From Ectocarpus siliculosus (Eukaryota; Sar; Phaeophyceae; Ectocarpales; Ectocarpaceae), in assembly GCA_000310025.1 (NCBI GenBank), contig FN649742.1:2409842-2433171 (forward strand): DNA of 23,330 bases, written 5' to 3'. The position numbers and the translations under genes were made by a program. Below the pieces are notes generated by a model. The model worked only from the letters and a program-made list of their open reading frames with translations. It searched no databases and was not told the DNA's origin. Below, piece after piece: positions 8,201 to 18,648 of the stretch (positions are counted from its first letter, which is position 1; each line of letters begins with the position of its first letter).

Positions 8201-11200
8201 GACTGCTCCAATTTTATAGAAAGGGCGGTGGTGAGTTTCGTGGACCGTTATTTTTCGTGTCTGCTTGACCACGTTCGGCTTAAATAAGTGCGTGCTTGCG
8301 ATGACTTGTTCCCGATGCCAACAGGCCGCGGATCTCAAGCAGAGTCTTATCGACGTGTCCGTAGACGACATCGATATGTCCGGAGGCAAGCCTTCCGATC
8401 GGGGCGGCGACGGGGAGGGCGGCGCCCTACGAGCCTCGCCACGGCCGGCGGGCGCAGCGGCGGCGGCGGCGGCGGCGGCGGCGGCAACAGAAGTGGTGGC
8501 ATCATTGGGGACGGCGGGGGCGGAGGCAGGGGGGGCAGGGGCTGACGATGAGAGCGGTAGCAGAAGGGGGAGCGCCACCGCCGAAGGTGACGAGCAACTT
8601 CCACGGGCGGCGGCGGCGGTGGCGGCGGTAGCGAGAGAGGCGGAAGAAGCGGCTTCCCCCGCGGTGGCGGCGGCCGGGCGGGCTACAGATAGCGGTGGGC
8701 GGGAGGGCACCGCTAGCGAGCGCGTCGAAGGCGTCGTAAGCATACCACCGGCGGCGGCAACGGGAGGTCTCAACGGTAACGGTGTGGGGCAGGGAGAAGG
8801 AGGACCAGGGGGCAAGGTTGATGCCGGTGCCACTAACGGCGGCGACGAGGGTAGGGCTGCGAGCAATGGCGGGGGGGAGCTTGTGACGAGAGCGATCCCG
8901 AGACGACCGTTGCGAGAGATGCTGAGGTGAGAAGGAGGTGTTTGTTTGGCCGTGCAGCAGTACAGTGGTGGTCCAGATATACCGTACCGCGGTCTCGAGT
9001 AGTGCGGGCCCTGATACACCGCGGCAAAAATCGCTTGTCACAGGATTTGGCTACCATACTAAAAGCTATATATTCCCCAACACTCAATAGTGCGGTGTCT
9101 CCATGTACACCGCGGTGATTTTTTATCTGCCACGACACCGCGGTATATCGGGACCATGACTGTGGTCGAGGCGTGTGGTTTTCGTTAGGTGTCTCCGTCC
9201 CGCGTGTCTCCTGCATGCCCGACCGGATAGCGACAACGACAACGACAGTGACGCAGCAGAGGCGGCGTCTTTGTATTATTTAATCACTTAATCACACAAA
9301 CAAACAAACCTCAAGGGTGCGGTGGTGGTGTTGGTGTACACCGGAGAGAGGGCTTGTCCAACGGCTTGACGTCTCGCCTCTTTCAGGTGTTGCGTAACAG
9401 AGTGTTTTCACGAGCGAGACCATGCAAGAGAGAAGGTTACGCTTTTTTGTTTGCCGCGTTTTGCTTTGTTTTCCGCCGCTGTGCAGCAGTACCGAGCGAA
9501 AATAAATGGAACGGGGCGGCAGGGATTGGTGTCGTGTTGTCGTGTGCGGTGGGGGTGAGGTGCTCCTGGGCTCCTTTTTTGTATCACCCGCCAGAATGTT
9601 GCGGCAGCTTGTGGCAAGCGTTGGCCTATGGTTGCCGCATCACAACAAAGCGAGAGCTAATTAAACACACACAGCAGCAGTAGCTGTCCTTCGACACGGG
9701 AAGAACCAAGGCAGCCAGTCAGTCAGAAACAACACCAGATCGTCTCTCTTGACGTTTTCTTTTTGTTCCCTCCAGGCTGTTGGTGCTTGCTTTTGCCATG
9801 TTGCGATATGGTGCCACCCGTGGCGGCGCCGGTGGTACAACGTGAAATCCATCACCACGGCGGTATGCCTGCGTGCGTACTACGGAACATTTGATACTAA
9901 ACATGGCAAAACGCTTGGATACGTTTGATGGTGAACAAGGTTGGAGGAAGAAGAAGCCGAGGTGAAGGACGGGGGCGAACCCGTAGCTCGCCTCGAGCAC
10001 CTTCCGGCCTTTACTGAGAGATGGGCGCCGGAGGCACTCACACCCCACATCTTGACGCAGGTGAACGAGTAGTCAGTCGACCATTGAGCGTCTCGCGTGT
10101 CCGTCCCGTCAGGTCGTTCCGTCCATGCCATGCCGCCCCCAAGGGCCGATGAACAGCACGCCCCCCCCCCAAAAAATGAAACAAGGGGTCCCTCTGGAGT
10201 GCGCTCATGAGAGCTCAAGGGGGTGACGCAAGATGAAAATAAGACCAGTAGAAAACTAACCCGCAGGCAGCTGCCAGCTACCATGATTTTTCCCAAACTC
10301 GAACTGCTCACACAGCTGATGTGTTTTTCACTCGAAGAGTAGTAGCCCAGCGAACCCCAACGAATCTAGAGAAAAAATTGAAATCTGTGTACAGCAGCAG
10401 TCTTGTATAGAGGAGGACGCGAGGGCGGGGGGGGGGGGGGGGCGTCTTCATGCAGGTCGCCAAGATTAGGATGAGCGTGTTTACTGTGAGGGTGGACGTT
10501 TGTTTTTTTTGTTGAGGCGTTTCCAGTGTCTGGCATGGCAATTCTGTGCTACTATCACCGTTGTTGCAGTTGTTGACGTCGTCGTTGTCGGGACCCCCTC
10601 CCCCCCTCCGTCATACTTATCGTATCTTATCTTACGCATATCGCATCTTATCCTGTCGTATCTTATCTTATCTTATATCAGGTGTTCAGCGGGCTGGTTC
10701 CCGTGGCGTCGAACCAGGGGCAGGGCGAGCCGGTGTGCACGTACATGCTGGAGTGCTGCGTCCGGCCCGACGTTCAGGCCGTCACCATCCTGCACGTGGC
10801 CTCGCTGGTGAGCCATCCACCAACCCGCTTTTGATGTTTCTTCTTTTCTTTTCTTTTGTCTTCACTTCAAATCAGCGCTCACAGCACTATAGTGCCGTTT
10901 GCTCCAACCCGTGGTCACGCGGAAGAGACTCTCTCTACCTTGCCCTCCTGCGGTACTTTGCCTTCGATTTTTAATGCGAGAAGAGTTCAGCACTCTCTTC
11001 CCTCTGTGTACACACGAACTAGCGCTATCCACTAGGCTAGGAGCGGAAGCGAGAGAAAAACTCACTTTGCAAGAAAAGCTCGCTTGCGCCGGGATTCGAA
11101 CCCCTGACCTGACCTCTAGAAAGTTTCGAGGATACCAACTAGACCACCGGGGCGACCTGCTTAGCCCTGGATGAATGTCGTATTTGATTGTTTTGTTTTT

Positions 11201-14200
11201 CAAGACTGTAGGTGGCACTACAGTTGATGATGACTTCGCGAAGTGGACGCGGGGGGGGGGGGGGGGGGGGGNNNNNNNNNNNNNNNNNNNNNNNNNNNNN
11301 NNNNNNNNNNNNNNNNNNNNNNNNNNNNNNNNNNNNNNNNNNNNNNNNNNNNNNNNNGGGGGGGGCATGCATGTCCGCGTGTTTTTTTCAGGTCAGCGAA
11401 TGCCGGCATAGGACCAAGAAAACGTGCACGGAAGGTGTACTCTACCCTGCGGGTGTATATGATATGTCGTCTACGCTTCTGGCACGCAGGCCTTCTTGTC
11501 TAGAGACATGAATATCTCTTCTTTTCCGTCCTGATGGCATACGCATCGACGAGCAACGAATCGTTCTCAGAAATGGCAGAAATAACGCGTCACGCATACC
11601 CCCCACCGATACGCCGCGCCAATGTTAACAACACGCTTACACTGCTTTGCTGCTGTGTGCAGATTGCCGCGAACCACGGGTTGGAACTCGTGCGCAAGCG
11701 GGGCGGCCAAGTCCTCTACGGCGTCGCACCCCCGGCCTCGAACGCTCCCCCTTCACCGCACGACAGCATCTTGTTTCCCCACTCCCCCCGGAGCCCCGCC
11801 CCCGCTGCAGCAGCAGCAGCAGCTGCTGCTGCTGCTGCGCCGCCTTCCCCGGCAGTGTCAGGGGGAGGGGCTTCCGTGCCCAGAACTCCGCCACCGCGGC
11901 CGCTGTCGCCGGAGGCGAGCGGCAGCAGCGCTACAAGTAGTGGCGCCCCCGCCGAGGCGGAGGAGACAGGAACGGGGTCCCCGGAGAATGAAGTCGAGGG
12001 CGCGGCGGAAAGGGGGACCGCGGATAGCTCGGCGGCGGCGGGGGGGGGCTCCGCGTCGAAGGGGGCGGCGACGGGCAAATTGTGGGGCGGGGCGGTCGGG
12101 GGGGCGACGGAGCTAAGGGGCTGGTGGGGCGCCGGCGGCGCCGGGTGGGGTGCATGGAGCCACGTGGACATGCAGCTGGTGGTAGGGCAGGCCTCCAAGC
12201 ACCGGGTAAGGGCATGTGCCACCAGTGTTTTTGAGAGAGTTGAGACGAAACGCGTACGGTAGTCCCCACACCGGTGCCTTCCATTAGGCTCCCCCCCCCC
12301 CCGAAAAAAACTTAGCCCCCAGTGAAACTAAGACCAAAAATCCCCCCGCCTATGAGGTTCGGGGGTGGAATAGTCGAGATAGGGTTGCCTCTTGTGGCAT
12401 GGAGCTATAAAACTGCTGTGAGTAAAGAGTATGGAGGTTGTTCATGCGGTACCGTATATTCTGTGAGCTTCACACCCTATTGGATATCCGCTGAACACTG
12501 GATAGTTGGAACGTCCTAGAGCAAAAAACACTTATGGACTACTCTATCTGGAATTTTCCCACCTGGGCTACATAACAGCAGATTGTACTCTTCAGTGTAT
12601 CACACACGAAGCCAAGTATTCGCTGTGTGTCCTCCTTTGAGGTATGCACGAGCGCGCGAATATCGATGCCCCATTGAGGTACCTGAACCCTAGTCGTGCT
12701 TGCCGAATGTGCAATGTTTGGTTAGCCGGGATGCCCTATCAACCCATAGCGTGCCTGGTTTGGCACAGCAAACGCAAGGATAATGACCAGAGCTTTCACG
12801 CTGGTAAAACGTAGCCTGGGCCGGCGAAAACCCGGCATATCGCTCCGTCTGTAGGGATGCGAGGTCTATCGTCCTACACGGCTTCGGCATGCATTTACAG
12901 GAGAACACCTCTCTCACCCCCCCCAAACCAAACGTGGTCAAAATGGTCTATTACTAACAGCTATTTAAAGGCATGCAAACGATGAGTACGCCCCCCCCCC
13001 CGACGAAACCAAACTGGTTTTGACGACATTTTTTTTACCCGAACCATGCACATAAAACCGTGTACCTCACTCGATTCGTCACGTCGGTCGCGTCGACAAA
13101 AACCCAAACTGCTTTTTGACGACTTTTTGTTTTTTTTACCCGAACTATTACAACAAATATCCAGGTACTCCTTATTCGATTCGTCCAAAAAAAACAGTAA
13201 CTGTTTTTTTGTCGACATTTTTTTTAACCCGAACTATCTACACGACAACCAGGTGCTCCTTGTTCGATTCGTCACCTCGAGAACGGCCACCTCCCGAGAG
13301 GTCTTCCGCCTGGCGGCCGCCGCCGCGGAGAACGGCGAGCCCCTGGCCATCGCGCCGGCGGCCAAGGGGTTCGTGTCGAGCGTGCAGCGCGCGCTTCGGG
13401 ACAGGGGCGCCCTGCTGGAGTCGCTGGAGGAGTTGCCGGTGCAGAAGACAAAGGTCGAGATCGACGCCCAGTTTTTGAGTCAGGTGTGTGATGCGCGCGC
13501 GATTCATTTTTGTATTTGTCTGGGTTTATATGGCCTGCGTGCGTCGTGTTATTGGGGAGGGACTGCAGCCTGGGTGCCTGGGTGGGGGGGTGTGTTCCTA
13601 GTGCTGTTTAACTCGAAGGTACTGCTGTTGGTTTTGTCGTTATTCATGGGGCTTGGTGGCTCGTTCGCTGGCAAGCTCTCTCTTTCTGTCTCGTCCTCCC
13701 TCTCTCTTTTCTCTTCTCTCTTGTTTTTGAGTTTTTTTGTCGCCTTCATGTACAACGCATACACCAGAACAACCGACCAGCCGGATCGCCCGAGAGAGCC
13801 ATTAATAATCGCGGGCTGAAACGGAAGGGCACAAATATCAAACATCTCCTGAGTCTCATCATGACGTCCTATCACATGGTTTAACAGCAGTGCCGAATAG
13901 TCATGGTAACGGTATCACATCATCATACGGCTATATACCTCCAAGTACCACGAACCCAGGCACTACCTAACCACCAGCTTGCGCTCTCTCTGTCGCGTCT
14001 TCGCATACGACGGCTCCTTGATTTTTTCGTCATCCTCCTTTCTGAGTTCGCGCTCGCTCGGCTGCCCGCTGCTTTTTGTGCCGCCGCCTGCCCTACCCAC
14101 CCGACACCCGGTCACGCGGACAAACCGGCGACGATGACGACGACGATAACGACGGCCATGAAAAAGGTGGAGGGTATGTGCCAGTTCGACATGGTGGCGA

Positions 14201-16585
14201 GCTTGAGGGAGGCAGGGGTTTCTTTGGACGAGCACGCCAGGGTGAGTGAGTGTGAGGCAGTGAGGCAGTGAGGCAGTGAGGGGTGAGCCGCCACCGAAGG
14301 GGGCACGCGGGCCAATGAACACACGTAAAAGTAGTGTTGACACACACGACTGGAACGACTGTGTTGATTGGTCAGCAGTCGGTTAGAGTCAGCGAATTAA
14401 ACGCACACGAGGGATATGCTGCTATTTCCGCGTGTTTTGCTAGAGTGATATGTACGGGGTGATGGCATAACTTTTTTTTTAACAGCATGGCCACTCTCTT
14501 ACCCCCGCGTTTAAGCACGGTGTTGGTATGCATACAGCAGTAGTGCTTCTGACCTCCTACCGATAGCGGCAGTGCATAGGGGAGTTCAACAGAGAGAGGC
14601 CTTAGACTCGACTAAGACCACTGCTGCTGTAGTACAACATCAACATGGCGGTGTCCTTCATCATGTTTTCTTATTAATAGCAGACCTCCCCCCGTTGGCA
14701 TGCACCCGCGTCTTACCTCCCACTCAATAGTTTAATACCGAAGTACATGACAATGCTGCGTCGAAAAACGAACGATAATGATCTAAGTAATGAGAATAAA
14801 CCCCGGTGCATTTCGGCGCCACGGCAGAACGAGGAGCTCCGGGGCGTGGTGGTGACGCGGCTGCTGGAGGAGATGTTCAACCTGGTCGGGCTCCCGATGC
14901 TGCCGCCGCCGCCCCAGCTCGTGCTCGCAATGCCGCGCCCGAACGACATCCTGCCCTCGAGGTGTGTTGGTTTGTTTTGGTTGTGTTTTTACTCTCTCCG
15001 CGGAGGACAATGTTGGGGTTAATCTTTGCTTCTTGCTCTTTCGTGTCGTCGTAACCCCGCCCCTGCCGTGCGCTGCACCGTACATGAGTTTTTGGCGGGG
15101 GATTTGGTAGGGATAGCCCATCCGCGGTTCATCCTTTGTCCCGCCCCCGTCCCGTCCTTGTCCCGCCCCGTCCCATTTCCCGCCCTTGTCCCGTCCGGTT
15201 TCCGTCCCGTCCCATTCATGCCCCTTCCCGTCATGTCCTCGTCCCGTCCCATCCCGCTCCCGCGCGTCCCGTCCCGTTCCGTCCGTATGCCGTATATGTA
15301 GCGTGGATCCCATGCCGGATTTGTGCGAGGAGGATAGAGGGGAGCTGTCGTCCCACCGCTTCTGCTCCGAGGCGAGCCGGGTCATGGCCAACGTGCTTGC
15401 CCGGTGCATCCGGTACACGGAGAAGTGCGACGAGCAGATGACGGCCCGCATGCAACGGAAAAACCGGCAGGTGAATGGAAGGGGAAAAAGATGGGACCCC
15501 TTTTTTTGAGCGGGGTCCACTCGTTTAAGGATGTACCAAGGCTTTGGCGGGGAGATCGGGGAGGAAGATTGCAGTTCTGCTCGCTTGGGTGCGGAGGGGG
15601 GGAGGGGGGGGTACATGTGAGTTTTTTCTCTCTGAATAAATGCTGGTCTAAGTTGGAAGCGACGCGCTGCAAAGCTCGTTGTTAGTAAACTGATCGACTT
15701 CATTGTTGACATCGACTTAACCGCCGGGAGGGAAGGGATTGCTGTACCCTTCTCGCGAGAAAAACTATCTCAGGCAGGCACCGCAGGAGGTAGATGGGGA
15801 CAAAAGAAGATAAAAAAAAGAAGAAACCCCCGGCGTGGGTACCCCCTCCTGTGTGACCCCGGACGGTGCGTCTAGCTAGTTTGTAGTGTAAGTGCACATA
15901 CGCGGCAAAACGTGAAGTGTGCACCGAAGAGGAGTAAGCAGGCGGCGCCAGAGATGGGACGAAAAAATAAAAAATAAAAATAAAATGTACTATACCTTTT
16001 TGTCCTATGCGATGTGGTTACTTTTTTGGGAGACCGTCGCTTGCCTAGGCCGCGTACCTTTTGCTCAGAGACTCGTCGACTGAAAAGCCGGATGAAACAA
16101 TGGTGCACTGCTGTTTGTGTTTTCTCTCGCATTGATTCACATTGAAGCCATACGTGTCTGCTGTGCACCATGCCCGTGCACTTCGCCCCCCCCCGCCCCT
16201 CGGCTCTTTTTCTGACTTGTTACCTTGGTTGTGTCCATGTCCGTTGGTCTCCTTGCAATGTTTGTCCAGGTTATGCAACGAATATCGCGCTCCCAGCTCT
16301 ATCAACGAGAGCTGTTCCAAGCTCTTCGCGACGGACACATGGCGGTCAGTTTAGTACTATTTTTTTTGTTGCATGTTTTGTGTGCTTCGAGATTGTCGCA
16401 TGCTGCAATTGCGTTGAGGTTTCTGCCTCTTGGACTCTCGGTGGAATTTCGTTCGGCCTGTTAGCGCGGTCGATGCTAGATATGATAGGAAAACACGCAC
16501 GAAAACCACCGTTGTGCGCCCCCTCTCTAGTAGTTCGCTTCTTTTTGTCTTGTCCTGCCCTTTTCACGAAACGAACGGCATGCAT

Positions 16586-16626
<41 letters not shown>

Positions 16627-18593
16627 CACTCTCTCTTTGCACGCGGTGTTGCACGCCACAGCAACACCGACACCAACGACGCCCAACACCAACAATTACC
16701 GACACCATGATCAACACCAACAACACCAACACCAATACCACCCGCGACACGCCCACCGTTGTTGGTTGTTGGTCTCGACGGCACAGGTCCGTCGATCGAG
16801 GATGACGGCGGCGTTCAGCAGGGTCATGCAGAGCCGACCCGAGGCTGGGATCGACCCCAACGTCGAGGCCCCCGTGTACTTCTGCTCGATCATCTGCAAC
16901 CGCCGGCCGGGGTACCTGTACCTCACGTGAGTCACAAGACGTCGTGGACGACGAAAAAGAAGATAAAGCAGGACGGGCGCAGAAAGAGTGTGCAGATAGG
17001 CGTCGGGGGATCGGTGGGGCAGAAAGAAGTTCAGAAAGGCGTCGGGGGGTTTGGTGAGGCGGTCGGGGGAAGCGAAGAGAAGAGAGGGAGCGTCGCGCGT
17101 GGCGTTGTAGCCTCTCTCTTCTTTGCGCGCTTTCTCGGGAAGACGGGGGTTATCGCGCCAACTCTTTGCGTTCAGGGTGCGGGGGGTGCGAGGTTGGGGG
17201 GGGGGGTTGTGTTTTTCTGTGTTTGGATGTCGCTTCGTTCCGTCGCTGGTACGTGCATGTGTCGCTTCCTTGTCTGGTGTAAAGTGGTGTACCAATAGTC
17301 TCTGTCCTGCTCGTGTCTTGTCTGTTGTGTTGTGTTGTCTGTGCATGCTTGGGCTCGTTGTTTTGTAAACTTGTTGGGTTGTGGTGAACCGCGCGAGCCG
17401 TCTTGTTGGTCGTGGTGCTGCTGTTGACAAGTTGTTCCCACTTGGTCTACGGACACGGGACCCCCCCAAACCAACCCCAAACATCCAATCTGGGATCCCC
17501 CTTACAACTGGTGGCGACCTCCTTCCTGCCGCCCTTCCTGCCGCCCACAGCGCTGCATCGGATCTCAAACAAACGGCCGTATTTGACGGGCGGTGTCTTT
17601 GCTTCCTTTTCACCCGCGGCCGTTAGTTTCGCTCCTTCCATGTGGCGCCGCGGCGATGGTGTCAATGACGTCAATGAAATTTTACGATTGGTTGCGCTGG
17701 TCGTGTCTTTTTTTTTTTTTGTCATTCCAGGTATTGGCACGTGTGCGTGGTAACGAAAGTGCCTGGTTTTGCTTCGACGGTAACGGTGATGAACCTCGAG
17801 GACATCGACGCGGTCGAGATCGTTAAGCTCTTTGTGGGATATGGGATTCAGGTAAGCGAGAGAGAGAGAGGGGGGGGGGGGGGGTAGGGAGGAGAGTGAG
17901 AGAGACAGACAAACCTACGAGGGAGGCAGAGAGAGAGAGAAAGGGAGAGAGAAAGGGACGGAGGGAGAGTGGAAGAGATAGACAAACCAACAGGAAGGCA
18001 GACAGAAAGAAAGAGACAAACCAACAGGGAGGCAGACTGGAAGAAGGAGGGAAGGGGAAGGCGGCGAGGAAGAAAAAGAGGGGTAAGTGGGAAATGCAGC
18101 ACAGAGATGAAGAGGGCGGCGGCAGGCCGAGGCAAAAGAACCAAGCGAGTGGGACGGATGGGCGGGCTATCTCGCTCGTGTGTTGTCCTGGTTTCACCTG
18201 CTGTCGTGTTCGTCTCTAACCCCTGCCACAAACACGTTGTTGCTCCCCCTCCCACATCGATCGACCCACGCCAACAGGTCAGAAAAGGCCTCCGGGGGGC
18301 AGCGGCGGCGGCGGGAGAAGAACCGACCGTGTCCCCGTTCCCCCCATCACCGGCGTCCTCCGCCTCTCAACCCCCCCCGCCCCGCCGCTCTAACGGCCAG
18401 ACGGACGCCGCGGCAGCGGCAGCGGCGGTTGCGGCGGCAAAGAGAGTCCGGCCGGCGACCATGACCTTCGCCACGGCCAAAGTAGCGACGGCCGAGCTCC
18501 GCGAGCTTATCGTAGCGCTGGTCCGGGTGCACCGAGAGCCGGTGACGTCGCCGTCGGCGGCGGAGAGGGCGGCGGCGACGAGAGCGGTGGCGT

Positions 18594-18648
<55 letters not shown>

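Follow-up and report, generated by a model that had tools for sequence, protein, structure and literature searches.

Tandem duplication of an intron-exon border has been described in the potato RdRp gene PGSC0003DMG402000361.L, and the report concerned (PMC4974935) describes adjacent copies of a unit that contains the 3' end of the intron, including a putative branch site (TTTAC), a pyrimidine tract, and CAG, together with the start of the exon that follows. In the potato gene, a cryptic donor has been activated and a new intron and exon piece are spliced, with support from RNA-seq. According to two further reports, dual-specific AGGT splice sites occur in tandem repeats, for example, in human UBC (PMC10809524), and Drosophila introns have been gained via duplicated exonic AG/GY proto-splice sites, with premature stops noted in such introns (PMC2891723).

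The window analyzed here, a stretch of 23,330 nucleotides of Ectocarpus siliculosus DNA, contains a predicted plus-strand gene whose intron 5 ends in a three-copy repeat array, and the potato border duplication appears to be the closest published likeness that we encountered. The array shares with the potato unit the intron 3' end, a putative branch site, the pyrimidine tract, CAG, the start of the following exon, and the adjacency of the copies. It differs in that no new exon is predicted, the three copies have diverged, and the upstream ones look dead or like decoys. The likeness to UBC lies in the recurrence of AGGT in copies 2 and 3, each instance of which could in principle be an acceptor or a donor. 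In the Drosophila case, as in the array, local tandem duplication supplies splice-site motifs, but the Drosophila duplications consist of coding sequence, whereas the Ectocarpus unit is mostly intron.

The array occupies positions 13006 to 13279 and consists of three diverged copies arranged head to tail, with 74 to 78% identical alignment columns in pairwise local alignments. Copies 1 and 2 share 63 of 85 columns (score, 55; 63 of 75 with gap columns excluded), copies 2 and 3 share 65 of 83 (score, 73; 65 of 71), and copies 1 and 3 share 57 of 73 (score, 61; 57 of 69). The top shuffle score was 29 to 30 per pair, and none of the 2000 dinucleotide-preserving shuffles run for each pair matched any real pair; adjacent copies with above-chance similarity, the pattern of a tandem border duplication, are therefore present. 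The original prediction of three similar copies spanning 13010 to 13310 was borne out as far as the array itself is concerned, but the array ends about 30 nt earlier than 13310. At the usual scoring (minimum, 30), the list produced by TRF did not include the array; a permissive setting lists it at 13098 to 13273 with a period of 88. Successive units lie 96 and 93 nt apart in their 5' part; in their 3' part, copies 2 and 3 are 88 nt apart and copies 1 and 3 are 193 nt apart. Blocks common to the copies include the T-run, ACCCGAAC[CT]AT, and TTCGATTCGTC.

Copy 1 (13006 to 13086, plus strand) has a palindrome-like start, T8, and ACCCGAACCAT and lacks the AG, as had been noted; aligned to copy 3, it reads ACC--GTG. 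Copy 2 (13101 to 13185, plus strand) contains T8, TTTAC, ACCCGAACTAT, and CAG/GT at 13164/13165. This look-alike acceptor (ATCCAG/GTACTCC) was correctly described as out of frame: in the phase of exon 5 it reads VLLIRFVQKKQ and meets a stop at the 12th codon. Copy 3 (13199 to 13279, plus strand) contains T8, TTAAC (A at -26), ACCCGAACTAT, and CAG/GT at 13252/13253, and the proposed acceptor (AACCAG/GTGCTCC) and the overlap with the first 27 nt of exon 6, to 13279, were likewise correct. Columns identical in all three copies make up 15 of 21 in the exon-like part and 37 of 53 in the intron-like part; the two parts are equally conserved and thus give no indication of coding constraint. Site patterns (copies 2 and 3 alike at eight sites, 1 and 2 at six, and 1 and 3 at four) do not settle the order in which the copies branched.

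A near-perfect inverted repeat (CAAAAAAAACAGT / ACTGTTTTTTTG) lies at 13178 to 13214, just before and into copy 3, and the starts of the other copies differ from that of copy 3 yet are likewise palindrome-like. Each unit holds an imperfect palindrome, with folding z-scores of -1.61, -0.11, and -2.02 for the individual units; the whole array has a z-score of -2.40, and there was no Rfam match within the window. A conserved RNA structure was considered, but nothing is drawn from these z-scores, and the palindromes are at most a possible aid to slippage.

Exon 5 (11663 to 12205, plus strand) is an open frame, rich in Ala, Gly, and Pro, that ends in phase 0 at CGG/GTAAGG (donor score, 5.84); a gene-finder calibrated as described below splits it into 11811 to 11856 and 11970 to 12205 and leaves the donor unchanged. 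An acceptor at 13253 continues exon 5 from its phase 0 end at 12205 and gives an intron 5 of 1047 nt, which is inside the calibrated range of intron lengths with or without the dispersed element that it contains. Exon 6 (13253 to 13483, plus strand; donor, CAG/GTGTGT) would then start with VLLVRFVTSRT. The calibrated gene-finder also predicts exon 7 (14167 to 14241) and exon 8 (14828 to 14961), both on the plus strand. Exon pieces and hand-joined proteins had no Pfam match at the cutoff (best E values, 0.11 to 0.15), no PDB relative was found (best E value, 0.38), and the genome beyond the gene gave only a chance-level match (E value, 9.6).

Other features of the window include a second tandem array (15139 to 15284; 39-bp/CCCGT-type units) in intron 8, just before the predicted exon 9 at 15302, and Ala tracts from trinucleotide runs in predicted plus-strand exons at 11804 to 11838, 8446 to 8485, and 18555 to 18648. 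On the minus strand, a well-scored coding block at 1672 to 2918 has FNQP..W P.GL..L as a recurring motif, together with long stretches of Ser/Gln, and presumably resembles repeats of the FNIP/LRR type. The EsV-1-7 cysteine motif, which is typical of brown algae, has at least 150 matches in the genome (150 scored of 880 first-look candidates) and was found in none of 14 control genomes.

Splice signals were calibrated on seven chaperonin (PF00118) genes of the same genome, in which 25 introns were inferred from profile continuity. Of 59 chaperonin matches, 48 lay in seven fetched loci and formed 41 neighboring pairs, 25 of which were used; the pairs left out were eight with a large profile gap, seven that lacked a candidate, and a single pair, L038, whose gap was 19. 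The choice of junctions was based on the match in profile length and on the donor score, independently of the acceptor. Among the 25, L036 was the only candidate and is one residue off in length, and L037 was the second-ranked, length-exact candidate. The 25 acceptors comprise 18 CAG, 5 AAG, 2 TAG, and no GAG, with the nearest upstream AG 33 to 218 nt away and matrix scores of 1.14 to 6.69; donor scores are 4.20 to 8.41, and intron lengths are 237 to 2558 nt (median, 521). Just 11 of the 25 acceptors have YTNAY at -45 to -14, so the TTTAC/TTAAC branch-point motif of the array is a weak argument. By the same calibration, the AGGT sites of copies 2 and 3 have full donor scores of 5.03 and 5.05, within the calibrated range; their intronic positions +3 to +6 score -0.47 and -0.45, below all 25 calibrated donors (lowest, -0.17). 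Unlike the situation in UBC, the 88-nt intron that they would delimit would be shorter than every one of the 25 calibrated introns.

The acceptor at 13253 has CAG, its nearest upstream AG is 55 nt away, and its matrix score is 4.0, all within the calibrated range. The copy 2 site at 13165 (CAG; nearest upstream AG, 178 nt; score, 3.16) fits the calibrated signals too. The stretch from 12987 to 13163 is free of AG (expected number, 6.5; P = 0.0002 by composition shuffle) and would also suit a distant branch point serving 13165, but this depletion is not leaned on because the copies share AG-poor sequence. The argument from AG exclusion relies on a scanning rule described for human introns (PMC1431707).

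Coding potential was scored with a model built from 1972 chaperonin codons in 37 of the 48 matches; those that contain an internal stop (11 matches) were left out. The exon core from 13301 to 13483 scores +34.5 over 61 codons (0.565 per codon), and the 16 codons from 13253 to 13300 score +1.55 (0.097 per codon; the best of three frames); exon 6 as a whole (13253 to 13483) scores +36.0, and the exon-frame score turns from negative to non-negative around 13253. The nine repeat codons themselves are neutral (+0.24), which leaves splice signals as the basis of their coding status. The calibrated gene-finder, a crude tool that uses chaperonin-derived signals and hand-set penalties and also predicts exons of a few bases, chose 13253 to 13483 as exon 6 unforced. 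It also drew a minus-strand exon over 13276 to 13411, at 19.6 compared to 36.0 for exon 6. Together, the calibrated signals and this unforced choice favor the acceptor at 13253, as originally predicted, so that a repeat unit would cross the predicted junction and exon 6 probably begins with nine repeat-encoded residues (VLLVRFVTS), in line with the roughly nine residues first proposed. Inclusion of the whole array in an exon was considered and rejected: the frame from 12986 to 13816 is open, but the codon score is -69 over the 89 codons from 12986 to 13252.

The unit was sought throughout the 189-Mb, 492-contig genome by using the array, copy 1, copy 3, and two 24-base patterns (up to 3 and up to 2 mismatches) as queries, and none was found beyond this locus; the search skips simple repeats, masked stretches read N, and the counts obtained are lower bounds. 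Copies elsewhere in the genome, as expected of a dispersed repeat or transposable element, were thus absent from the search results. Intron 5 does hold a dispersed element (12314 to 12926, plus strand) upstream of the array, which is context and separate from the repeat. It has at least 46 matches including itself (40 scored of 622 first-look candidates), the others being 68 to 88% identical. Several of these other copies end in ATGAGTAC or similar, followed by a C-run, and a quick test gave no clear terminal inverted repeat. A possible degenerate second copy of the element end lies at 12930 to 12990, abutting the array; 1 of 10 comparisons was above all 1000 shuffles, and two more were reached by less than 1% of them, but with stricter scoring none of eight comparisons was above all 500 shuffles.

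The likely origin of this arrangement is a local tandem duplication of the intron 5-exon 6 border, in which copy 3 is the working copy and the upstream copies are now intron. A segment of about 90 bp, made up of the end of intron 5 and the opening 21 to 27 nt of exon 6, would have been duplicated locally at least twice, with the border copy as the presumed parent and the intronic copies as daughters, an order that the site patterns do not settle. Each unit would be a 3'-splice-site cassette consisting of a T-run, a branch-point-like TTTAC/TTAAC 26 to 27 nt before the junction, and CAG/GT. Copy 3 would remain the border, with its in-frame acceptor at 13252/13253 in use. Copies 1 and 2 would now be intron sequence: copy 1 appears dead because its AG is missing, and copy 2 is a plausible pseudo-acceptor whose use, because it gives a premature stop, is expected to occur at a low level or to lead to nonsense-mediated decay. 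Border duplication, one of two origins offered by the original prediction, seems the simplest account because the similarity extends across the likely junction, the genome search found the unit at this locus alone, and the units resemble acceptor cassettes.

The other proposed origin, a spreading repeat that inserted the units and captured the splice site, is highly improbable: the presence of the dispersed element in the same intron and the possible end copy abutting the array would suit it, but the whole-genome search, which skips simple repeats and masked stretches, found this locus alone, and the ends of other element copies (ten right and three left pieces, all 351 bases long, with partial masking in two of the right pieces) did not match the array, with scores of 21 or less. 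A more serious competitor, though still an unlikely one, is that an intronic minisatellite came first and that its last unit then captured the acceptor, displacing an older downstream one and adding 16 codons. The near-neutral score of the nine repeat codons and of the seven that follow them, set against the exon core, would fit such a capture, and the intronic position of copies 1 and 2 and the unsettled copy order are compatible with it. Against it stands the one in-frame site that could be seen as the older acceptor, GAG/G at 13300/13301 (13298 to 13301, plus strand), which has two features found in none of the 25 calibrated acceptors, namely, GAG and an AG nearer than 33 nt; this site could, for its part, have decayed once abandoned.

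Those two features also make it very unlikely that 13301 is the acceptor in use and that the array is wholly intronic. The site had been put forward as a repeat-free, in-frame acceptor, and it is in frame, its matrix score of 2.89 lies inside the calibrated range (3 of 25 sites score lower), and the exon core with the strongest codon score starts there; the proposal is weakened by GAG and by AGs 2, 19, and 48 nt upstream. In a forced comparison, the calibrated gene-finder gave slightly less to 13301 (total, 37.4) than to 13253 (40.0), a small gap. A self-trained gene-finder (20 fetched stretches plus the window) took 13301 to 13483 as exon 6, which counts against 13253, but its model was rejected because several of the stretches were largely masked, the median exon was 81 nt, and the splice matrix was vague. 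It is improbable that 13165 (out of frame) and 13253 (in frame) compete as a tunable splice rheostat, in which the number and state of units would set the share of transcripts that run into a premature stop and are degraded, and copy number would vary between strains.

The repetitiveness of the border was measured by comparing the segment from -70 to +30 with the 300 nt that precede it. The score is 70 for the exon 6 border and 43 or less for all 25 chaperonin borders; random positions (n = 584) have a 99th percentile of 63.5 and a maximum of 95. A score of at least 70 occurred at 9 of 1949 further sampled positions of the fetched sequence, which tempers the rarity implied by the original prediction, and permissive TRF gave 16 rows (which may overlap) with a period of 60 to 150 in 231 kb, the array included. 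This background rate would imply a chance of a few per cent of such a case in a window with about ten introns. Comparable border repetitiveness is thus uncommon but ordinary in this genome.

By analogy with the potato gene, the type of duplication is already known, and this case alone leaves the general picture unchanged. The preferred reading, tandem duplication of the border, would make the locus a clearly bounded illustration of the way in which small local duplications may alter exon ends while decoy splice sites stay behind, and it carries a simple prediction: repeat-encoded residues at the start of the exon and a decoy 88 nt upstream. The setting is the brown algae, an intron-rich lineage with independently evolved multicellularity.
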